In this document: piece after piece, positions 20,309-27,274 of the stretch
Layout of the letters: every line of letters starts with the position of its first letter
Position numbering within the stretch: the stretch's first letter is position 1
DNA from: Longimicrobiales bacterium
Lineage (GTDB): Bacteria > Gemmatimonadota > Gemmatimonadetes > Longimicrobiales > RSA9
Reading direction: 5' to 3'
Assembly (NCBI GenBank): GCA_035461765.1
Contig: DATHUY010000134.1
Span: forward strand, 1-64,000
DNA: 64,000 nt
Made by a program: the position numbers and the translations under genes
Notes under the pieces: generated by a model
Databases searched by the model: none
Told to the model about the DNA's origin: nothing
Seen by the model: only the letters and a program-made list of their open reading frames with translations

Positions 20309-21037
20309 TCAGCGGAGCAGATAGCGGGCGAGCCAGAGGCCGGAGAGAATGTCGATAGCCGCGTGAGCGATGATGGACGGCAGGATCGACCCGTCGAGTA
20401 CGAGGGGCAGGGCCAGGATCAGACCGAGCAGCGCGGCACGCACCGCACCGGCGGGCTGCTGATAGGCATGCGCGACGCCGAAGACACCGCTGCTCAGAAG
20501 CAGAGCGATCGCGAGCGACCCGGTCGCGCCGTACAGCACGTGGATCAGGAAGCCGCGGAAGATGATCTCCTCACAGATGCCTGCCGTGATGGAGACGCCG
20601 GTGAAGAGGAGCCGGTCGTGGACGGAGACGGGCATGAGCTCGCGTACCATCCGCGGCTCACGCACGCCCGCAAAGCGGAAGGCGAACAGCACGCCGACGC
20701 CGCCAGCCGTCATTGCGACGGCGAGCAGCACCGTTCTCCACGCACCGAGTGTCACCAGGCCGAGCTCGGTGAATCCGTATCCGCTCACCCAGGCGATGCC
20801 CGCCGTGGCGAGGGCGAGCCCCCACAGGCTTACGATGGAGCTGATGTACGCTTCGGTACGAGGGAGCGTCTCCAGACTGCTCAGCGCGCGACCCTGGAGG
20901 ATCAGGAGAATGGGCAGCGGCACGAGCAGGACGACGGCCCACGCGCGAGCCGCGGGGGGCACACCGGCCAGCTGGAGCCAGGCCACGACCGCTGCGACGC
21001 CAGCAGCGGCTGCGATCGCTAGCGAGCCCGGTCTCAC
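20309..21037 (-). CDS. CPBP-family intramembrane metalloprotease
   Basis: A 242-residue membrane protein with about eight helices and the CPBP (CAAX protease and bacteriocin-processing, Abi) motifs: EEIIFRG, FGVAHAY and the late HAAIDI. These supply the glutamates and histidines of the intramembrane active site. GTG 21037 is used as start; it lies 13 bases after the stop of the PAP2 gene. It is the last gene of the ceramide-type lipid operon; its target is unknown. Confidence 0.88.
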   Translation of the reverse strand: MRPGSLAIAAAAGVAAVVAWLQLAGVPPAARAWAVVLLVPLPILLILQGRALSSLETLPRTEAYISSIVSLWGLALATAGIAWVSGYGFTELGLVTLGAWRTVLLAVAMTAGGVGVLFAFRFAGVREPRMVRELMPVSVHDRLLFTGVSITAGICEEIIFRGFLIHVLYGATGSLAIALLLSSGVFGVAHAYQQPAGAVRAALLGLILALPLVLDGSILPSIIAHAAIDILSGLWLARYLLR

Positions 21038-21050
21038 TCGATGGCTGCGG

Positions 21051-21962
21051 TCATGCCGCGGTGGGCGCCGACCGCCCGCTCAACGCGCGCGCCAGAGGAC
21101 GCGCCAGCGCGAACGCGGCCGCACCCAGCACCGCGCCGGCCACCGCATCCGTCGCGTAGTGGAAGCCGCCATACACTGCGCCGAGCGCGAGTCCCACAGT
21201 GAGGATCGCGAACAGCGGCGTCAGCCGCGGCAGGTATCGCAGCACGACGAGGGTCTGAGCCACCGATACGCCCACGTGCGATGACGGGAACGCCGCGCCC
21301 TGTGCGGACCCGGCCTCGAGCACACGGTGCGCGAGCTGATGGAAGAACCCGCCGGCCAGCTCACCGCCCGGTGGCGGAAACAGGTAGCGCGGCCCCTGCA
21401 CCGGGAAGTAGATGAAAACCAGGTAGTGCGTGAAGAACGCCAGCATGAGAGCGAACACACCCGCACGGAACTCCGCCGTCCGCCTCTGTAGAAAGAGGAC
21501 GAGCGGCGGCACGAATATGATGAAGTAGTACGAGAGGTAGGCGGCGTGCAGCGGCTCGGAGAGCCACAGTTCCGGCACGGCCGCCGCCCACTCACGGCTC
21601 GGCTGACCGCCGAAGATCGCCTGCTCCCACGCAATCACCGGCCCATCGAAGTACGAGCCGCCGTGCACGCTCCGGTTCAGCACCGCGAGCTCCGTATACA
21701 GCAGCGGCATGAGCAGCAGCGGCGCCCAGTCCAGAGCGCCGCGCACGATCCGTCGCAGGCGCGGCACCGCGCGGGATAGCCCGTGCTCCAGCGCACGCGG
21801 CGGCCACGCGATCAGCACCACTGCCGCATGCAGAGCGAGCAGCACCATCCATGATGCTGGCCGGTCCGCGAACGCGAGGGCCGGCGCGGCTGCGAGCATG
21901 TAAATGGCGAACAGCCGGTCGAGCGGCAGACCCAGCACACGCTCCGCGGCGCGCGCCGTCAC
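21051..21962 (-). CDS. PAP2-superfamily membrane enzyme in sphingolipid operon
   Basis: A 303-residue multi-span protein with the PAP2 phosphatase/transferase motifs AAFPSSHVGVS and GGFHYATDAVAG; the usual first motif KxxxxxxRP is replaced by QGPRYLF. The divergent first motif and inositol-phosphoceramide-synthase-like layout suggest a head-group transferase or a lipid phosphatase acting on ceramide products (inference). Translation starts at a GTG overlapping the upstream stop as GTGA, so it is coupled to the GNAT gene. The reading frame runs on upstream to 22754 but only because it is antisense-free GC-rich sequence inside the GNAT gene. Confidence 0.82.
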   Translation of the reverse strand: MTARAAERVLGLPLDRLFAIYMLAAAPALAFADRPASWMVLLALHAAVVLIAWPPRALEHGLSRAVPRLRRIVRGALDWAPLLLMPLLYTELAVLNRSVHGGSYFDGPVIAWEQAIFGGQPSREWAAAVPELWLSEPLHAAYLSYYFIIFVPPLVLFLQRRTAEFRAGVFALMLAFFTHYLVFIYFPVQGPRYLFPPPGGELAGGFFHQLAHRVLEAGSAQGAAFPSSHVGVSVAQTLVVLRYLPRLTPLFAILTVGLALGAVYGGFHYATDAVAGAVLGAAAFALARPLARALSGRSAPTAA

Positions 21963-23092
21963 GACTCCAGCGGTTTCTCGTACAGGCGGTAAGTCTTGTC
22001 CGGCACGGCGCCGACCCGCTCCAGGCCGCGGCGCATGTCCCAGTTGTCTTCCAGAATCCACGAACACTCGCCCTTCCAGATTCCGATCTTTTTGGCCTCG
22101 ATGACGAGATGCGCGATCAGCAGCGCGTCGAGGCCGCGTCCGCGATAGCCCGGTTTCAGACCGAGCGTGATCGTGCGCGCCTGCGCGATCCTGCGACGAT
22201 GCCACAGCAGCTTCACGATGCCGAACGGCAGCAGCCGGCCGTTCACGTGCTTCAGTGCGACGTTGAAGTCCGGCAGGCCCAGTGCGAAGCCGACCGGCTC
22301 GCCATCGACTTCGGCGAAGGCACACAGCTTCGGCTGCACGATCGGCTTGAGATGGCGCGCCATGTAATCGAGTTCCGCACCCGTCATCGGTACGAAGCCC
22401 CAGTTCTGCTCCCACGCGCTGTTGTAGATGTCGCGAACGATCCCGACCTCGGCATCGAAACGCCGCACATCCAGCGACCGCAGCTTTGTCCTCCCGTCGC
22501 GCAGCAGCCGGTCGTGCGCGCGCTGCAGCCGCGGCGGGATCGGGTCCGCGTGGATCCAGTAGGACAGCAGGTCCTTCGACTTCGCGTATCCGGCCCGCGT
22601 GATCAGCTCTGCGTAATACGGCGGATTGTGACCCATGAGGACGGCAGGCTCCCGGTGCCAGCCGTCGATCAGCACACCTGGCGAGCACACCTCGTCGTTC
22701 GTCGACAGGTTCATCGGGCCCTGCACCGTCGTCAGACCGCGCCCGCGTAACCACTGCTCCGCCGACCGCAGCAGCGCGTCCGCAACGCCCTGGTCGTCAA
22801 TGCACTCGAACAGCCCGAAGAACCCGAGACGGTCACCGTGAAACTCGTTGTGCGCACGGTTCACCACCGCGGCGATGCGACCCACGGGATCACGTCCGCG
22901 CCACGCCAGGAACAATGCGACATCAGCGTGCTCGTAGAACGGATGCTTCGCGGGATTCAGCGCCGCACGCACGTCCGAGAGCAGCGGCGGCACCCACATC
23001 GGGTCGTCCGCATAGATCGACCACGGCAGCTTCAGGAACCGCTCGAGGTCCGCGCGCCCCTCGACCGCCCGAACCTCCACTCCACCGGTCAC
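21959..23092 (-). CDS. GNAT-fold N-acyltransferase, candidate bacterial ceramide synthase
   Basis: A 377-residue double-GNAT-like protein. The first half has LPWSIYADDPMWVPPL and NEFHGDRLGFFGLFE; the second has VDGEPVGFALGLPDFN and ITLGLKPGYRGRGLDALL, the acyl-CoA-type loop. It matches the family to which the Caulobacter ceramide synthase (bCerS) belongs, recorded there as an acyl-CoA N-acyltransferase-like protein. The position between serine palmitoyltransferase and a PAP2 enzyme supports N-acylation of a sphingoid base. ATG 23092 is the start. A hexamer repeat separates it from the upstream gene. Confidence 0.75.
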   Translation of the reverse strand: MTGGVEVRAVEGRADLERFLKLPWSIYADDPMWVPPLLSDVRAALNPAKHPFYEHADVALFLAWRGRDPVGRIAAVVNRAHNEFHGDRLGFFGLFECIDDQGVADALLRSAEQWLRGRGLTTVQGPMNLSTNDEVCSPGVLIDGWHREPAVLMGHNPPYYAELITRAGYAKSKDLLSYWIHADPIPPRLQRAHDRLLRDGRTKLRSLDVRRFDAEVGIVRDIYNSAWEQNWGFVPMTGAELDYMARHLKPIVQPKLCAFAEVDGEPVGFALGLPDFNVALKHVNGRLLPFGIVKLLWHRRRIAQARTITLGLKPGYRGRGLDALLIAHLVIEAKKIGIWKGECSWILEDNWDMRRGLERVGAVPDKTYRLYEKPLES

Positions 23093-23097
23093 GCCGT

Positions 23098-23186
23098 AAA
23101 CCCCCGCCCGCGCCCGCGTGCGTGCCCGCGCCCGATCACCGTCCCGATCCCGAACACGCTCCCGATCCCGATCCCGAACCCGTTCA
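23098..23186. repeat. degenerate hexamer array inside the sphingolipid operon
   Basis: Mixed cccgat, cccgaa, cccgcg and cgctcc hexamers fill the 91-bp space between the GNAT start (23092) and the serine palmitoyltransferase stop (23184). The later part, cccgatcccgaacacgctcc, matches the arrays at 5.3 and 6.7 kb. It breaks an otherwise tightly packed operon. Confidence 0.7.
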
Positions 23187-24365
23187 AATGACCGCCATCC
23201 GCTTGCCGATCGTCGCGAACGCGTCGAGCACGAAGTCGATGTGCTCGTCCGTGTGTGTCGCCATGAGCGAGATCCGGAGCCGGCAGGAATTCTCCGGCAC
23301 GGCCGGCGGTGTCACCGGGTTGGTAAATACGCCTGCATCGAAGAGCTGCTTCCAGAAGATGAACATCTGATCGATCTCCCCCACCTGCACCGGGATGATC
23401 GGCGTTTCGCTGCGGCCGATGTCGTAGCCGAGCGAGCGCAGTCCTTCCTGCATGCGTCGCGTGTTCCGCCACAGCTGTTCTCTGCGCTCCGGCTCTTCCG
23501 CGATGACGTCGAGTGCGGCGAGAGAGGACGCCACGGAGGCGGGCGGGTTGCTCGCGCTGAAGATCAGCGACCGCGCGTGATGCTTCAGATAGTGGATCAC
23601 ATCCTCCGGCCCGGCGACCATGCCGCCAATCGAGCCGAGCGACTTCGAGAACGTCGCCATGATGAGCGACACGCGGTCCTCGAGGTGGAAGTGCTGCGCG
23701 GTGCCCCCGCCGAACTCGCCGAGCACGCCGAACGAATGAGCGTCGTCCACCAGGACTTCGGCGCCGTAGAACTCCGCCAGTGCCATGATGCCCGGCAGGT
23801 CGACGATCGTGCCTTCCATCGAGAAGATACCGTCCGTCACGATCAGCTTGCCCGCCTCCGACGGCGTGCGCGCCAGCTCGCGCTCCAGCGCACGCATGTC
23901 GCCGTGCGGGAACCGATGCACGGTACCGAACGCCAGGCGGGCGCCATCCACGATACTGGCGTGGTTCAGCTTGTCAGAGAAAAGATGGTCATCACGGCCG
24001 ATGAGGGAGGAGATCACACCGAGGTTCGTCTGATACCCCGTGCTGAACACGAGCGCGGCCTCCTGGTTGACGAACTTCGCGAGCCGCTCTTCCAGCCTTT
24101 CGTGCAGGTCCAGCGTGCCGTTCAGGAACCTGCTGCCCGTGCAACCGGTGCCATACTGCCGCAGGGCCTTCTCCCCGGCCTCCAGGACCTTCGGATGATG
24201 CGTCAGACCGAGGTAGTTGTTCGAGCCGACCATCACCTTCCGCTCGCCATGGATCAATACCTCCGTGTCGTACGATGCCTCGATCGGCACGAAGTACGGG
24301 TACACACCCGCCGCCATCACCTCGCGCGCCTTCGTGAACCGATAGCATTTCTCGAACAGGCTCAT
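23184..24365 (-). CDS. spt: serine palmitoyltransferase / alpha-oxoamine synthase
   Basis: A 393-residue PLP enzyme of the alpha-oxoamine synthase family. It joins serine and an acyl thioester to form 3-ketosphinganine, the first step of sphingolipid synthesis. PLP lysine K241 lies in TFSKSLGSIGG; H135 (LNHAS) stacks on the cofactor; VDDAHSFG (206-213) binds the ring nitrogen. The NNYLGLTHHPKV and GTGCTGSRFLNGT segments are typical. The start is ATG 24365, preceded by GGAGAG. Family members that make 8-amino-7-oxononanoate or 2-amino-3-ketobutyrate look similar; the neighbouring genes favour serine palmitoyltransferase. Confidence 0.85.
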   Translation of the reverse strand: MSLFEKCYRFTKAREVMAAGVYPYFVPIEASYDTEVLIHGERKVMVGSNNYLGLTHHPKVLEAGEKALRQYGTGCTGSRFLNGTLDLHERLEERLAKFVNQEAALVFSTGYQTNLGVISSLIGRDDHLFSDKLNHASIVDGARLAFGTVHRFPHGDMRALERELARTPSEAGKLIVTDGIFSMEGTIVDLPGIMALAEFYGAEVLVDDAHSFGVLGEFGGGTAQHFHLEDRVSLIMATFSKSLGSIGGMVAGPEDVIHYLKHHARSLIFSASNPPASVASSLAALDVIAEEPERREQLWRNTRRMQEGLRSLGYDIGRSETPIIPVQVGEIDQMFIFWKQLFDAGVFTNPVTPPAVPENSCRLRISLMATHTDEHIDFVLDAFATIGKRMAVI

Positions 24366-24399
24366 CCGCTCTCCATTGGGCTCCAGGCCCACCGAGGAT

Positions 24400-25386
24400 T
24401 TACAGCCAGCCCTGCTCCCGATACCACTGCGCCGTGTCGCGCAGACCGTCAGCGAGAGGAATGTCTGCCTCAAAGTTCAATACCGCACGTGCGGCATCGG
24501 TTTCACACAACCAGCCCGGCGCCAGCAACTCGCGCGCCTTGTCGCGATTGAAGATCGAGCTGCGACCCACCACACCGGCCGCTGTCTCGCTCACCGCGGC
24601 CAGTGCCGCGATCAGCGCACCCGGTACCCGCGCCACGCGTACCTTGCGCCCCACCGCCTCCCCCACGGCGCGTCCTATCTCTTCCCATGTGTATTGCCGC
24701 GCCTCGGCAATGTGGTACACACCGGCCGCGTCCGGCGCCTGTGCGGCAAGGACCAGTGCCCGCGCCAGATCCTCGACGTGGACCATCTGGAGCAGCCGCG
24801 CCGGCCCGGTGGGCACCGGTATGACGCCGCGCCGCGCCAGCTTGAAGAAATGATACAGGTCCGTGTCGCGAGGTCCGTAGACGGCCGGCGCCCGCAGGAT
24901 CCTGACGTCCATGCGTGCCGCCGCTGCCATGCTTACGCGCTCACCGGCCAGCTTGCTTCGGCCGTACCGGGTCAGCGGCCGCGGTACATCCCCCGGCTCG
25001 ACCGGGCGTCCCCCCTCGGCCGGCCCGACCGCAGCGAGGCTGCTCAGGTAAACGAACCGGTGTGCACCGCCCGCGAAGGCCGCATCAAGCAGACGTTGCG
25101 TGCCGATTACATTCGCTTCCTCGTACTCCTCGTCGGATCTCGCGTGCGTGAGTGCGGCCAGGTGAACCACGGTCCCGACCCCGGCGCACGCCGCGTCGAG
25201 GGCCGGCGTGTCATCGAGCGAGCCGTGGATCAGTTCCACTCCGAGCTCCGCGATGGGCCGGGCCCGCTCCCGTGAGCGCACCAGAGCCCGCACCTCTAAC
25301 CCTGCACGCACGAACGCCAGCGCCGCGTGCGATCCCACGAAACCGGTTGCGCCGGTCAACAGCACACGGTGCGGCGGCGTTGCCAC
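24400..25386 (-). CDS. NAD(P)-dependent epimerase/dehydratase, candidate 3-ketosphinganine reductase (CerR-like)
   Basis: A 328-residue extended short-chain dehydrogenase. The Rossmann loop is GATGFVG near the start, the active site is YGRSK with Ser upstream (YLSSLAAVG), and MVHVEDLARALVLAA matches sugar-epimerase-like enzymes. In Caulobacter, CerR, a protein of this type, reduces the ketosphinganine made by serine palmitoyltransferase, and the gene here is directly upstream of that enzyme. Start is a GTG at 25386, chosen because the Rossmann strand begins seven residues later; no ATG is available. It is the first gene of the operon. Confidence 0.78.
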   Translation of the reverse strand: MATPPHRVLLTGATGFVGSHAALAFVRAGLEVRALVRSRERARPIAELGVELIHGSLDDTPALDAACAGVGTVVHLAALTHARSDEEYEEANVIGTQRLLDAAFAGGAHRFVYLSSLAAVGPAEGGRPVEPGDVPRPLTRYGRSKLAGERVSMAAAARMDVRILRAPAVYGPRDTDLYHFFKLARRGVIPVPTGPARLLQMVHVEDLARALVLAAQAPDAAGVYHIAEARQYTWEEIGRAVGEAVGRKVRVARVPGALIAALAAVSETAAGVVGRSSIFNRDKARELLAPGWLCETDAARAVLNFEADIPLADGLRDTAQWYREQGWL

Positions 25387-25568: not shown

Positions 25569-26885
25569 TTACTCGAGCTCGGCGCGGATGGCTTCCTCGA
25601 CGACGGCCAGGGCGAAGTCCAGCTGGGCTTCCGTGATGACAGCTGGCGGTGTGATGGCCAGAACCTCGGCGTCGCTGCCTTCTGCCAGCAGCAGGACGCC
25701 CCGTCTCAGACAGCGGTCGGCCACCCGCAATGCCTGGCCGGGGCCATGCATGGGAGCACCCTGCAGCAGGCCGCGGCCGCGCGGCTCGCCCACGGCGTCG
25801 AAGCGCGACGCCCACCATGTGGTCTTCTCGCGGATCACCTCGCCGAGACGCTCGGTGCGGCGCAGCAGGTCGCCGGTCTGGATGGCCTCGAGCTGGGCGA
25901 GCGCTGCGGCGCAGGCGATCGGATTACCAAGAAAGGTGCTGGTGTGTATGGCCTCGCCGGTCGACGCGGGCCAGGCCTGCATCACGGCCGGAGTGCCGAT
26001 CGCCGCGCTGATGGGAAGGCTGCCGCTGAGCGCCTTGCCGACAACGAGCACATCCGGCACCACGTCGTCGTGCTCGCAGGCGAACCACCGTCCCGTCCGA
26101 CCGCAGCCGGTATAGACCTCGTCCAAAATGAGGAGGATGCGGTTGCCGTCGCAGCGGTCGCGGAGGGCCGCTAGAAATCCGGGCGGGGCCACGCGCAGCC
26201 CGCCCCGGCCGAGGATCGGCTCGACCAGAATCGCGCCCACGGGGTGCGACGAGCTCTCCGCCTGCTGCACGATCCGATCGACGGCCTCGAGCGCGGCGTC
26301 CGCTCGAGAAATCGGATAGGGCGCGAACCGCACACCGTCGAAGAGCTGCCCCGCGAAGCGAGCCCTGAAGTCCGGCCGCCAGGTCGTCGCCAGGGCACCG
26401 TACGTCAGGCCGTGGTACGCGCCCTCGAATGCCACGATCCCGGTCCGGCCCGTACGCATGACCGCGGTCTTGAGCGCCGCCTCGACCGCCTCTGCGCCGC
26501 TGCCGGCCAAAATCGACATGCCGAGGTCCCCCGGCGCTATGTCCGCAAGCCGCTCGAGCAGTCTGACCTTCGGTTCCGGCGGGTAGACGTCGCCGAGGCC
26601 GTGAGCCAGTCGTCCCGCCTGGTCGGCGATCGCAGCCGCGACGTGCTCCTGCGCGTGGCCCGCGTGGGCCACACCGAAGCCTGCGGTCAGATCGATGTAG
26701 ATGTTGTCGTCGGCGTCCCGCACCGCCGCCCCCCGGGCCTCGGTCCAGAAGATGGGGGGCGGCTCGATCGACGTGATGTTGGGCGATTCCACGCGCGCCA
26801 GTCGATCGGTCAGGGCGCGCGAGGCGGGACCGGGTACGTCCGTGATGAGATGAGGCAGCTCGTCGCCGAGCAGCCGCGCGGTCAC
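25569..26885 (-). CDS. class III PLP-dependent aminotransferase
   Basis: A 438-residue aminotransferase of fold type I, class III. It has the GSGAEAVEAALKTAVMRTGR phosphate-binding block, ILDEVYTGCGRTG, the cofactor lysine in VLVVGKALSGSLPISA and the HTSTFLGNPIACAAALA segment. Class III members transfer amino groups from omega-amino acids such as ornithine, lysine or GABA, or modify cofactors and polyamines. The donor is not readable here. GTG 26885 overlaps the upstream stop as GTGA, so translation is coupled to the HTH/zinc-ribbon protein. Confidence 0.85.
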   Translation of the reverse strand: MTARLLGDELPHLITDVPGPASRALTDRLARVESPNITSIEPPPIFWTEARGAAVRDADDNIYIDLTAGFGVAHAGHAQEHVAAAIADQAGRLAHGLGDVYPPEPKVRLLERLADIAPGDLGMSILAGSGAEAVEAALKTAVMRTGRTGIVAFEGAYHGLTYGALATTWRPDFRARFAGQLFDGVRFAPYPISRADAALEAVDRIVQQAESSSHPVGAILVEPILGRGGLRVAPPGFLAALRDRCDGNRILLILDEVYTGCGRTGRWFACEHDDVVPDVLVVGKALSGSLPISAAIGTPAVMQAWPASTGEAIHTSTFLGNPIACAAALAQLEAIQTGDLLRRTERLGEVIREKTTWWASRFDAVGEPRGRGLLQGAPMHGPGQALRVADRCLRRGVLLLAEGSDAEVLAITPPAVITEAQLDFALAVVEEAIRAELE

Positions 26886-27274
26886 CGCCGCGGCACGATG
26901 ATAAGCGTCGCGGCGGCTCCGAGCGCCGCTCCGGCCAGGGCCGCACTGCCCACGCGGACCGCGCGCTGCATCTCCGGATCGTCCATGCGCGCACGCCTGG
27001 ACGTCGGTGGCGACGCAGGGACGTCGTCGGCCTCCTCGTCGGCGGCTTCGCAGACCGGGCACGTCTCGATGCCGGCGTTGCGCGCTGACCGGTTCTCGAA
27101 GACGAGCGGGCTGCCACACACATCGCAGCTCCCGCTCGTCGGCAGCGGATCGACGGAATCGTAGAGCGCGCGCCGTGACAGCTCCAGCTGCTGAGCGATA
27201 TCGGCGACGGATGTCTCCGTCTCCCAGTAGAGGCGGTTGGCTTCTGCGGCGATCGTATCTGTGGCTCGCGGCAT
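26882..27274 (-). CDS. HTH + zinc-ribbon + membrane-anchor protein
   Basis: A 130-residue protein with an unusual order of parts. Residues 20-42 (ETSVADIAQQLELSRRALYD) look like a resolvase/transposase-type helix-turn-helix. C50-x2-C53 and C72-x2-C75 form a zinc ribbon. An acidic linker leads to a single transmembrane span (about 107-127, small-residue rich) and the C-terminus VPRR. A membrane-tethered DNA-binding or sensing role is possible (inference). AGGAG five bases before ATG 27274 fixes the start. It is coupled to the class III aminotransferase. Confidence 0.8.
   Translation of the reverse strand: MPRATDTIAAEANRLYWETETSVADIAQQLELSRRALYDSVDPLPTSGSCDVCGSPLVFENRSARNAGIETCPVCEAADEEADDVPASPPTSRRARMDDPEMQRAVRVGSAALAGAALGAAATLIIVPRR

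Follow-up and report, generated by a model that had tools for sequence, protein, structure and literature searches.

Two questions are raised by a run of five genes on the minus strand (25386-20309) of the window, the 64,000-nucleotide stretch of DNA analysed here, which lies on contig C134 of the 4.68-Mb genome of a Longimicrobiales bacterium: whether these genes make a ceramide, as originally predicted from the sequence, and what a PAP2-family membrane protein is doing amongst them. To the first, our answer is that the operon very probably makes ceramide, a judgement drawn from homology. To the second, we consider it probable, though well short of certain, that the operon joins ceramide synthesis to a first head-group step, in which the PAP2 protein would act by AUR1-like transfer.

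Layout of the operon and its surroundings

Open reading frames and Pfam families bear out the gene content, order and strand of the original prediction. An SDR gene encoding a candidate CerR-like ketone reductase (24400-25386; 328 aa; Epimerase, 6.8e-35) is followed by genes for a serine palmitoyltransferase (SPT; 23184-24365; 393 aa; Aminotran_1_2, 8.9e-56), a tandem-GNAT N-acyltransferase resembling CerS and YghO (21959-23092; 377 aa; Acetyltransf_1, 6.7e-8), a PAP2_3 membrane protein (21051-21962; 303 aa; PAP2_3, 1.9e-21) and, last, a CPBP (Rce1-like) intramembrane protease (20309-21037; PF02517, 2.4e-19). Successive intergenic gaps measure 34, 91, -4 and 13 bp; the SDR, GNAT and PAP2 genes all begin with GTG, and the tight coupling claimed for the acyltransferase and PAP2 genes is indeed present, the start of the latter overlapping the stop of the former in a 4-bp GTGA. 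Scans of the operon region for promoters and terminators returned nothing above chance. Six further genera or species within the family retain the five-gene order, and among the 29 best other loci 26 have the SPT gene adjoining the GNAT gene, from which it can be argued that the grouping goes beyond chance.

Upstream, and absent from the original prediction, a class-III aminotransferase gene (25569-26885, minus strand; PF00202, 1.4e-95) ends 182 bp from the SDR gene and is joined through a second 4-bp GTGA overlap to a gene for a 130-aa protein with CxxC pairs (26882-27274, minus strand), for which neither Pfam nor NCBIfam gave a match. The aminotransferase gene lies upstream of the SDR gene in five loci from the organism's own family (L094, L095, L096, L098 and L100), and the CxxC protein is conserved with the block in all of these but L096; both genes are members of the conserved block across several genera of this family, and might have a sphingoid or amino-lipid role. 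At the other end, the CPBP protease (motifs EEIIFR, FGVAH and H225) stands beside PAP2 only in the organism's own family and was not found adjoining it in the other lineages examined. We read the protease, together with the aminotransferase and the 130-aa protein, as lineage-specific additions. The suggestion that the protease controls the PAP2 enzyme or the pathway found no support, and its candidacy as a regulator was dropped on account of this confinement to one lineage.

Predicted enzymes of the ceramide backbone

The PLP enzyme belongs to the alpha-oxoamine synthase family, within which SPT is closer to it than KBL, BioF or HemA are. Compared with solved structures, it scores 435 bits against bacterial SPT (8guh/3a2b), 260 against KBL, 246 against cysteate acyltransferase and 208 against BioF; it carries the PLP-lysine motif TFSKSLGS together with DDAHS and DKLNHAS, and among NCBIfam models the CFB-type SPT (NF047600) fits it best, at 541 bits, under the cut-off of 640. 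A KBL- or BioF-type activity had been named from the outset as what would count against a ceramide pathway, and these scores point instead to an SPT-like enzyme, with a separate KBL-like enzyme coded elsewhere in the genome (contigs C61/C62). Those two contigs (loci L075 and L076) show a closely similar placement of the KBL-like gene and a CDP-alcohol transferase gene, a similarity that possibly reflects strain mixture or duplication; the stated contamination of the assembly is 4.86%. Members of the alpha-oxoamine synthase family vary in substrate, and with a score below the equivalog cut-off the window enzyme might use cysteate, alanine or glycine and so lead to a sulfonolipid or a 1-deoxyceramide. 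We hold this to be very unlikely, given the higher score with SPT than with the cysteate fatty acyltransferase, and given that a head-group phosphotransferase encoded in the same operon would presumably need the 1-hydroxyl derived from serine.

For the acyltransferase and the reductase, the natural comparison is with the ceramide genes of Caulobacter crescentus, namely CC_1165 (aasR), CC_1164 (cerR), CC_1163 (acpR), CC_1162 (spt) and CC_1154 (cerS) (PMC11324152), where SPT, an SDR reductase and a GNAT-type N-acyltransferase are likewise clustered; the window GNAT and SDR were compared with this system by way of loci that share the Caulobacter gene context rather than with the CC_1154 and CC_1164 sequences themselves. 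One such locus, on a Klebsiella plasmid, carries SPT, acyl carrier protein, SDR, fatty acyl-AMP ligase and N-acyltransferase genes, a five-gene set that corresponds to CC_1165-CC_1162 plus CC_1154. The window GNAT is 38% identical over its full length to the homologue encoded there, and the SDR is 33% identical over 315 columns to that of the same complete locus. A Roseomonas homologue, whose gene lies beside LptF/LptG permeases and a nucleotidyltransferase, is 43% identical to the GNAT, again over its full length. The window GNAT is therefore a homologue of N-acyltransferases found inside Caulobacter-type sphingolipid loci; its gene is single-copy in the genome, and its AF2 model (pLDDT 85) has a tandem GNAT fold. 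The SDR bears the extended-SDR motifs GATGFVG and YGRSK, and in both Rubrobacter and Streptomyces homologues of it are encoded next to SPT and GNAT. Homology thus lends strong support to the claim that SPT, a GNAT ceramide synthase and a CerR-like SDR make up a core ceramide pathway. The three backbone enzymes are those of a pathway already known in bacteria, and metagenomic work has broadened the range of Spt-like proteins to 40 phyla (PMC11334938).

In the pathway that we infer, including its order of acylation and reduction, SPT would form 3-ketosphinganine from serine and a fatty acyl thioester, the GNAT protein would attach the amide-linked acyl chain and the SDR would reduce the 3-keto group. 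The likeness to Caulobacter has its limits: the window cluster comes without a dedicated acyl carrier protein, acyl-ACP synthetase or ceramide kinase, and has a PAP2_3 gene instead; the Caulobacter system also includes cpgABC. Caulobacter CerR is, moreover, periplasmic (PMC11087976), whereas no signal peptide is visible in the window SDR, the N-terminus of which opens directly with the Rossmann fold, and ketone reduction may for that reason be cytoplasmic in this organism.

Loci of the Caulobacter type also turn up in Klebsiella and E. coli. That of Klebsiella michiganensis (L102, 3161-9122; spt, acp, SDR, acyl-AMP ligase, N-acyltransferase) lies on a conjugative IncFIB plasmid. In E. coli PN43 (L103, 1343-9122), lptF-lptG, SPT, acyl carrier protein, SDR, fatty acyl-AMP ligase and yghO form a locus that adjoins glc, and at least 80% of the stretch from SPT to yghO is shared by 4039 of the 5426 complete genomes of E. 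coli. The 37% identity between YghO and the window GNAT makes YghO a probable ceramide synthase.

The PAP2 protein as a candidate head-group transferase

Whether the PAP2 gene belongs to the pathway at all was approached through its genomic company in a sample of 298 Gemmatimonadota genomes. Amongst the 112 with listed strong matches to both GNAT and PAP2, the two lie within 3 kb of one another in 96; by the same matches, 36 genomes have GNAT only, nine have PAP2 only and 141 have neither, an association that is not corrected for phylogeny. The spacing of most close pairs leaves room for one gene, which is an SDR wherever it was read. The order is SDR-SPT-GNAT-PAP2 in the organism's own family and SPT-GNAT-SDR-PAP2 in other Gemmatimonadota lineages and in Eisenbacteria, and in Gemmatimonadaceae PAP2 is divergent from GNAT-SPT; linkage that persists through at least three arrangements speaks for a common pathway. 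Beyond Gemmatimonadota, a plasmid collection gave PAP2 matches only in Bacteroides finegoldii, Prevotella, Phocaeicola and Nonomuraea. GNAT, SDR and PAP2 are grouped together in Nonomuraea. In B. finegoldii and Prevotella (L086 and L092), a homologous SDR gene runs directly into a homologous PAP2_3 gene, annotated in B. finegoldii as 'phosphatase PAP2 family protein'; in neither stretch does the pair have an SPT or N-acyltransferase gene next to it, and the encoded PAP2 proteins share with the window protein the motifs PVxGP, AAFPSSHVG and VYxxxHYxxD. The ceramide pathway could nonetheless stand with a PAP2 protein that acts on phospholipids or carrier lipids in some unrelated role and is merely co-transcribed with it, and the occurrence of the family without a nearby SPT (L013, L014, L018 and L021-L026) would fit such an arrangement. 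We think this quite unlikely, because the gene keeps so close to GNAT despite rearrangement and because the SDR-PAP2 pair recurs in Bacteroidota.

The linkage is not universal. About a quarter of the listed GNAT-positive genomes (36/148) have no listed PAP2 match of this kind, so that head groups of another sort, or ceramide left bare, must exist as well. Clusters of SPT-GNAT-SDR (L077 and L078) and an SDR-GNAT pair with no SPT nearby (L079) were seen in lineages without a PAP2 of this kind. In Gemmatimonadaceae-type loci, Glycos_transf_1 genes adjoin SPT-GNAT (L017, 6247-7482; L020, 4054-5163; L082, 5620-6651), which suggests that those loci may make glycosphingolipids.

PAP2 proteins are mostly phosphatases, and one encoded in a ceramide operon might trim or recycle intermediates by acting, for example, on ceramide-1-phosphate, a phosphorylated long-chain base or phosphatidate. 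A profile search agrees with this to the extent that the phosphatases YodM and LpxE (1.1e-3) rank slightly above AUR1 (7e-3), so that sequence alone does not decide the family; a single-sequence search of solved structures places AUR1 at the top (8e-4). Structure and motifs are more discriminating. The AF2 model (pLDDT 90, from an alignment of 18 sequences) finds, by Foldseek, inositol phosphorylceramide (IPC) synthase with ceramide as its top match (3.7e-5, TM 0.61) and Aur1-Kei1 next (7.8e-5); no PDB entry beyond these two AUR1 structures matches at E<=1e-3, the best phosphatase reaching 5.5e-3 and human SMSr standing at rank 37. The window protein carries PVQGPR, FPSSHV (with H229) and GAVYGGFHYATD (with H268 and D272), and these three residues are invariant across the alignment. 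Of the phosphatase signature KX6RP - PSGH - SRX5HX3D, by contrast, neither KX6RP nor the third-motif SR occurs in any of the 18 sequences; the arginine of that motif, six positions ahead of the catalytic histidine, gives way to Ala or Thr in every one of them and to Thr in the AUR1 alignment. AUR1 (PDB 9vj4, 9ivc), the closest solved fold, has in common with the window protein the FPSxH and HYxxD elements and the absence of the third-motif arginine; identity between the two is 18%, and no Kei1-type subunit is known for the window PAP2. With its PAP2_3 fold, its triad in FPSxH and HYxxD and AUR1 as its nearest structural neighbour, the modelled protein appears to be of the AUR1 type. To the fold search and the lost motifs may be added that no lipid kinase able to provide a phosphorylated substrate was recognised in the conserved neighbourhood, few members of which are annotated by family search, and we regard a phosphatase as unlikely.

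The original prediction had allowed for either a head-group or a phosphatase step. Linkage, the AUR1 fold match and the loss of phosphatase motifs together favour the former and tell against the latter, and the best reading of the model is that PAP2 is an AUR1-like ceramide phosphotransferase rather than a phosphatase. Such a multi-helix membrane enzyme would take a phospho-head group off a glycerophospholipid and pass it to ceramide by way of a histidine intermediate (H229/H268/D272), releasing diacylglycerol as yeast AUR1 does. A bacterial counterpart is BT_1522 of Bacteroides thetaiotaomicron, shown genetically to be an AUR1-like phosphoinositol dihydroceramide synthase (PMC9246714). Both proteins are AUR1-like and come from sphingolipid-making bacteria, predicted as such in our case. 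BT_1522 sits among inositol genes and not with SPT, whereas the window PAP2 gene is with SPT; and at 16.5 bits to the BT_1522 model (NF052609), against a cut-off of 480, the window protein is not its equivalog.

Candidate head-group donors and place among bacterial sphingolipids

The genome encodes a myo-inositol-phosphate synthase (MIPS) beside a CDP-alcohol transferase (L074, 7875-9888), the best models for the latter being archaetidylinositol-phosphate, BT1523-type and PI-phosphate synthases, all below cut-off; it also has a phosphatidylserine decarboxylase gene. PI and PE are both plausible candidate donors for the PAP2 enzyme. MIPS co-occurrence was set aside as an indicator of an inositol head group: the gene is present in all 96 genomes with linked GNAT and PAP2 (hypergeometric 3e-4, confounded by phylogeny), but its near-universal presence in the phylum (278 of 298 genomes) means that co-occurrence cannot identify the donor. 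That same frequency, taken with the PI-phosphate-synthase-like gene beside MIPS, raises the prospect that inositol lipids may be common in Gemmatimonadota.

Ethanolamine phosphoceramide (EPC) is a main sphingolipid of Bacteroides, and lipidomics of B. thetaiotaomicron in 2022 reported no match for its synthase by homology to the eukaryotic enzymes (PMC8791184). Within the searchable literature, from which subscription papers and preprints largely fall away, no bacterial EPC enzyme is named, nor is this PAP2 clade named in ceramide metabolism. Members of the PAP2_3 clade are linked to SPT, CerS and CerR genes in Gemmatimonadota, in Eisenbacteria and in one actinomycete; in Bacteroides and Prevotella their linked partner is the SDR gene. 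The clade might be a general bacterial ceramide phosphotransferase that includes the EPC synthase of Bacteroides, a proposal that we advance tentatively and judge rather more apt to fail than to hold. Since gut Bacteroides carry the SDR-PAP2 pair, one knockout there would be enough to put the candidate to the test. Bacterial sphingolipids differ chiefly by head group, and the PAP2 gene is a precise candidate for the head-group step. Two bacterial routes to phosphosphingolipids are thereby suggested: one in which a kinase acts first, as in Caulobacter, and one of direct transfer, for which the operon described here may be the example.
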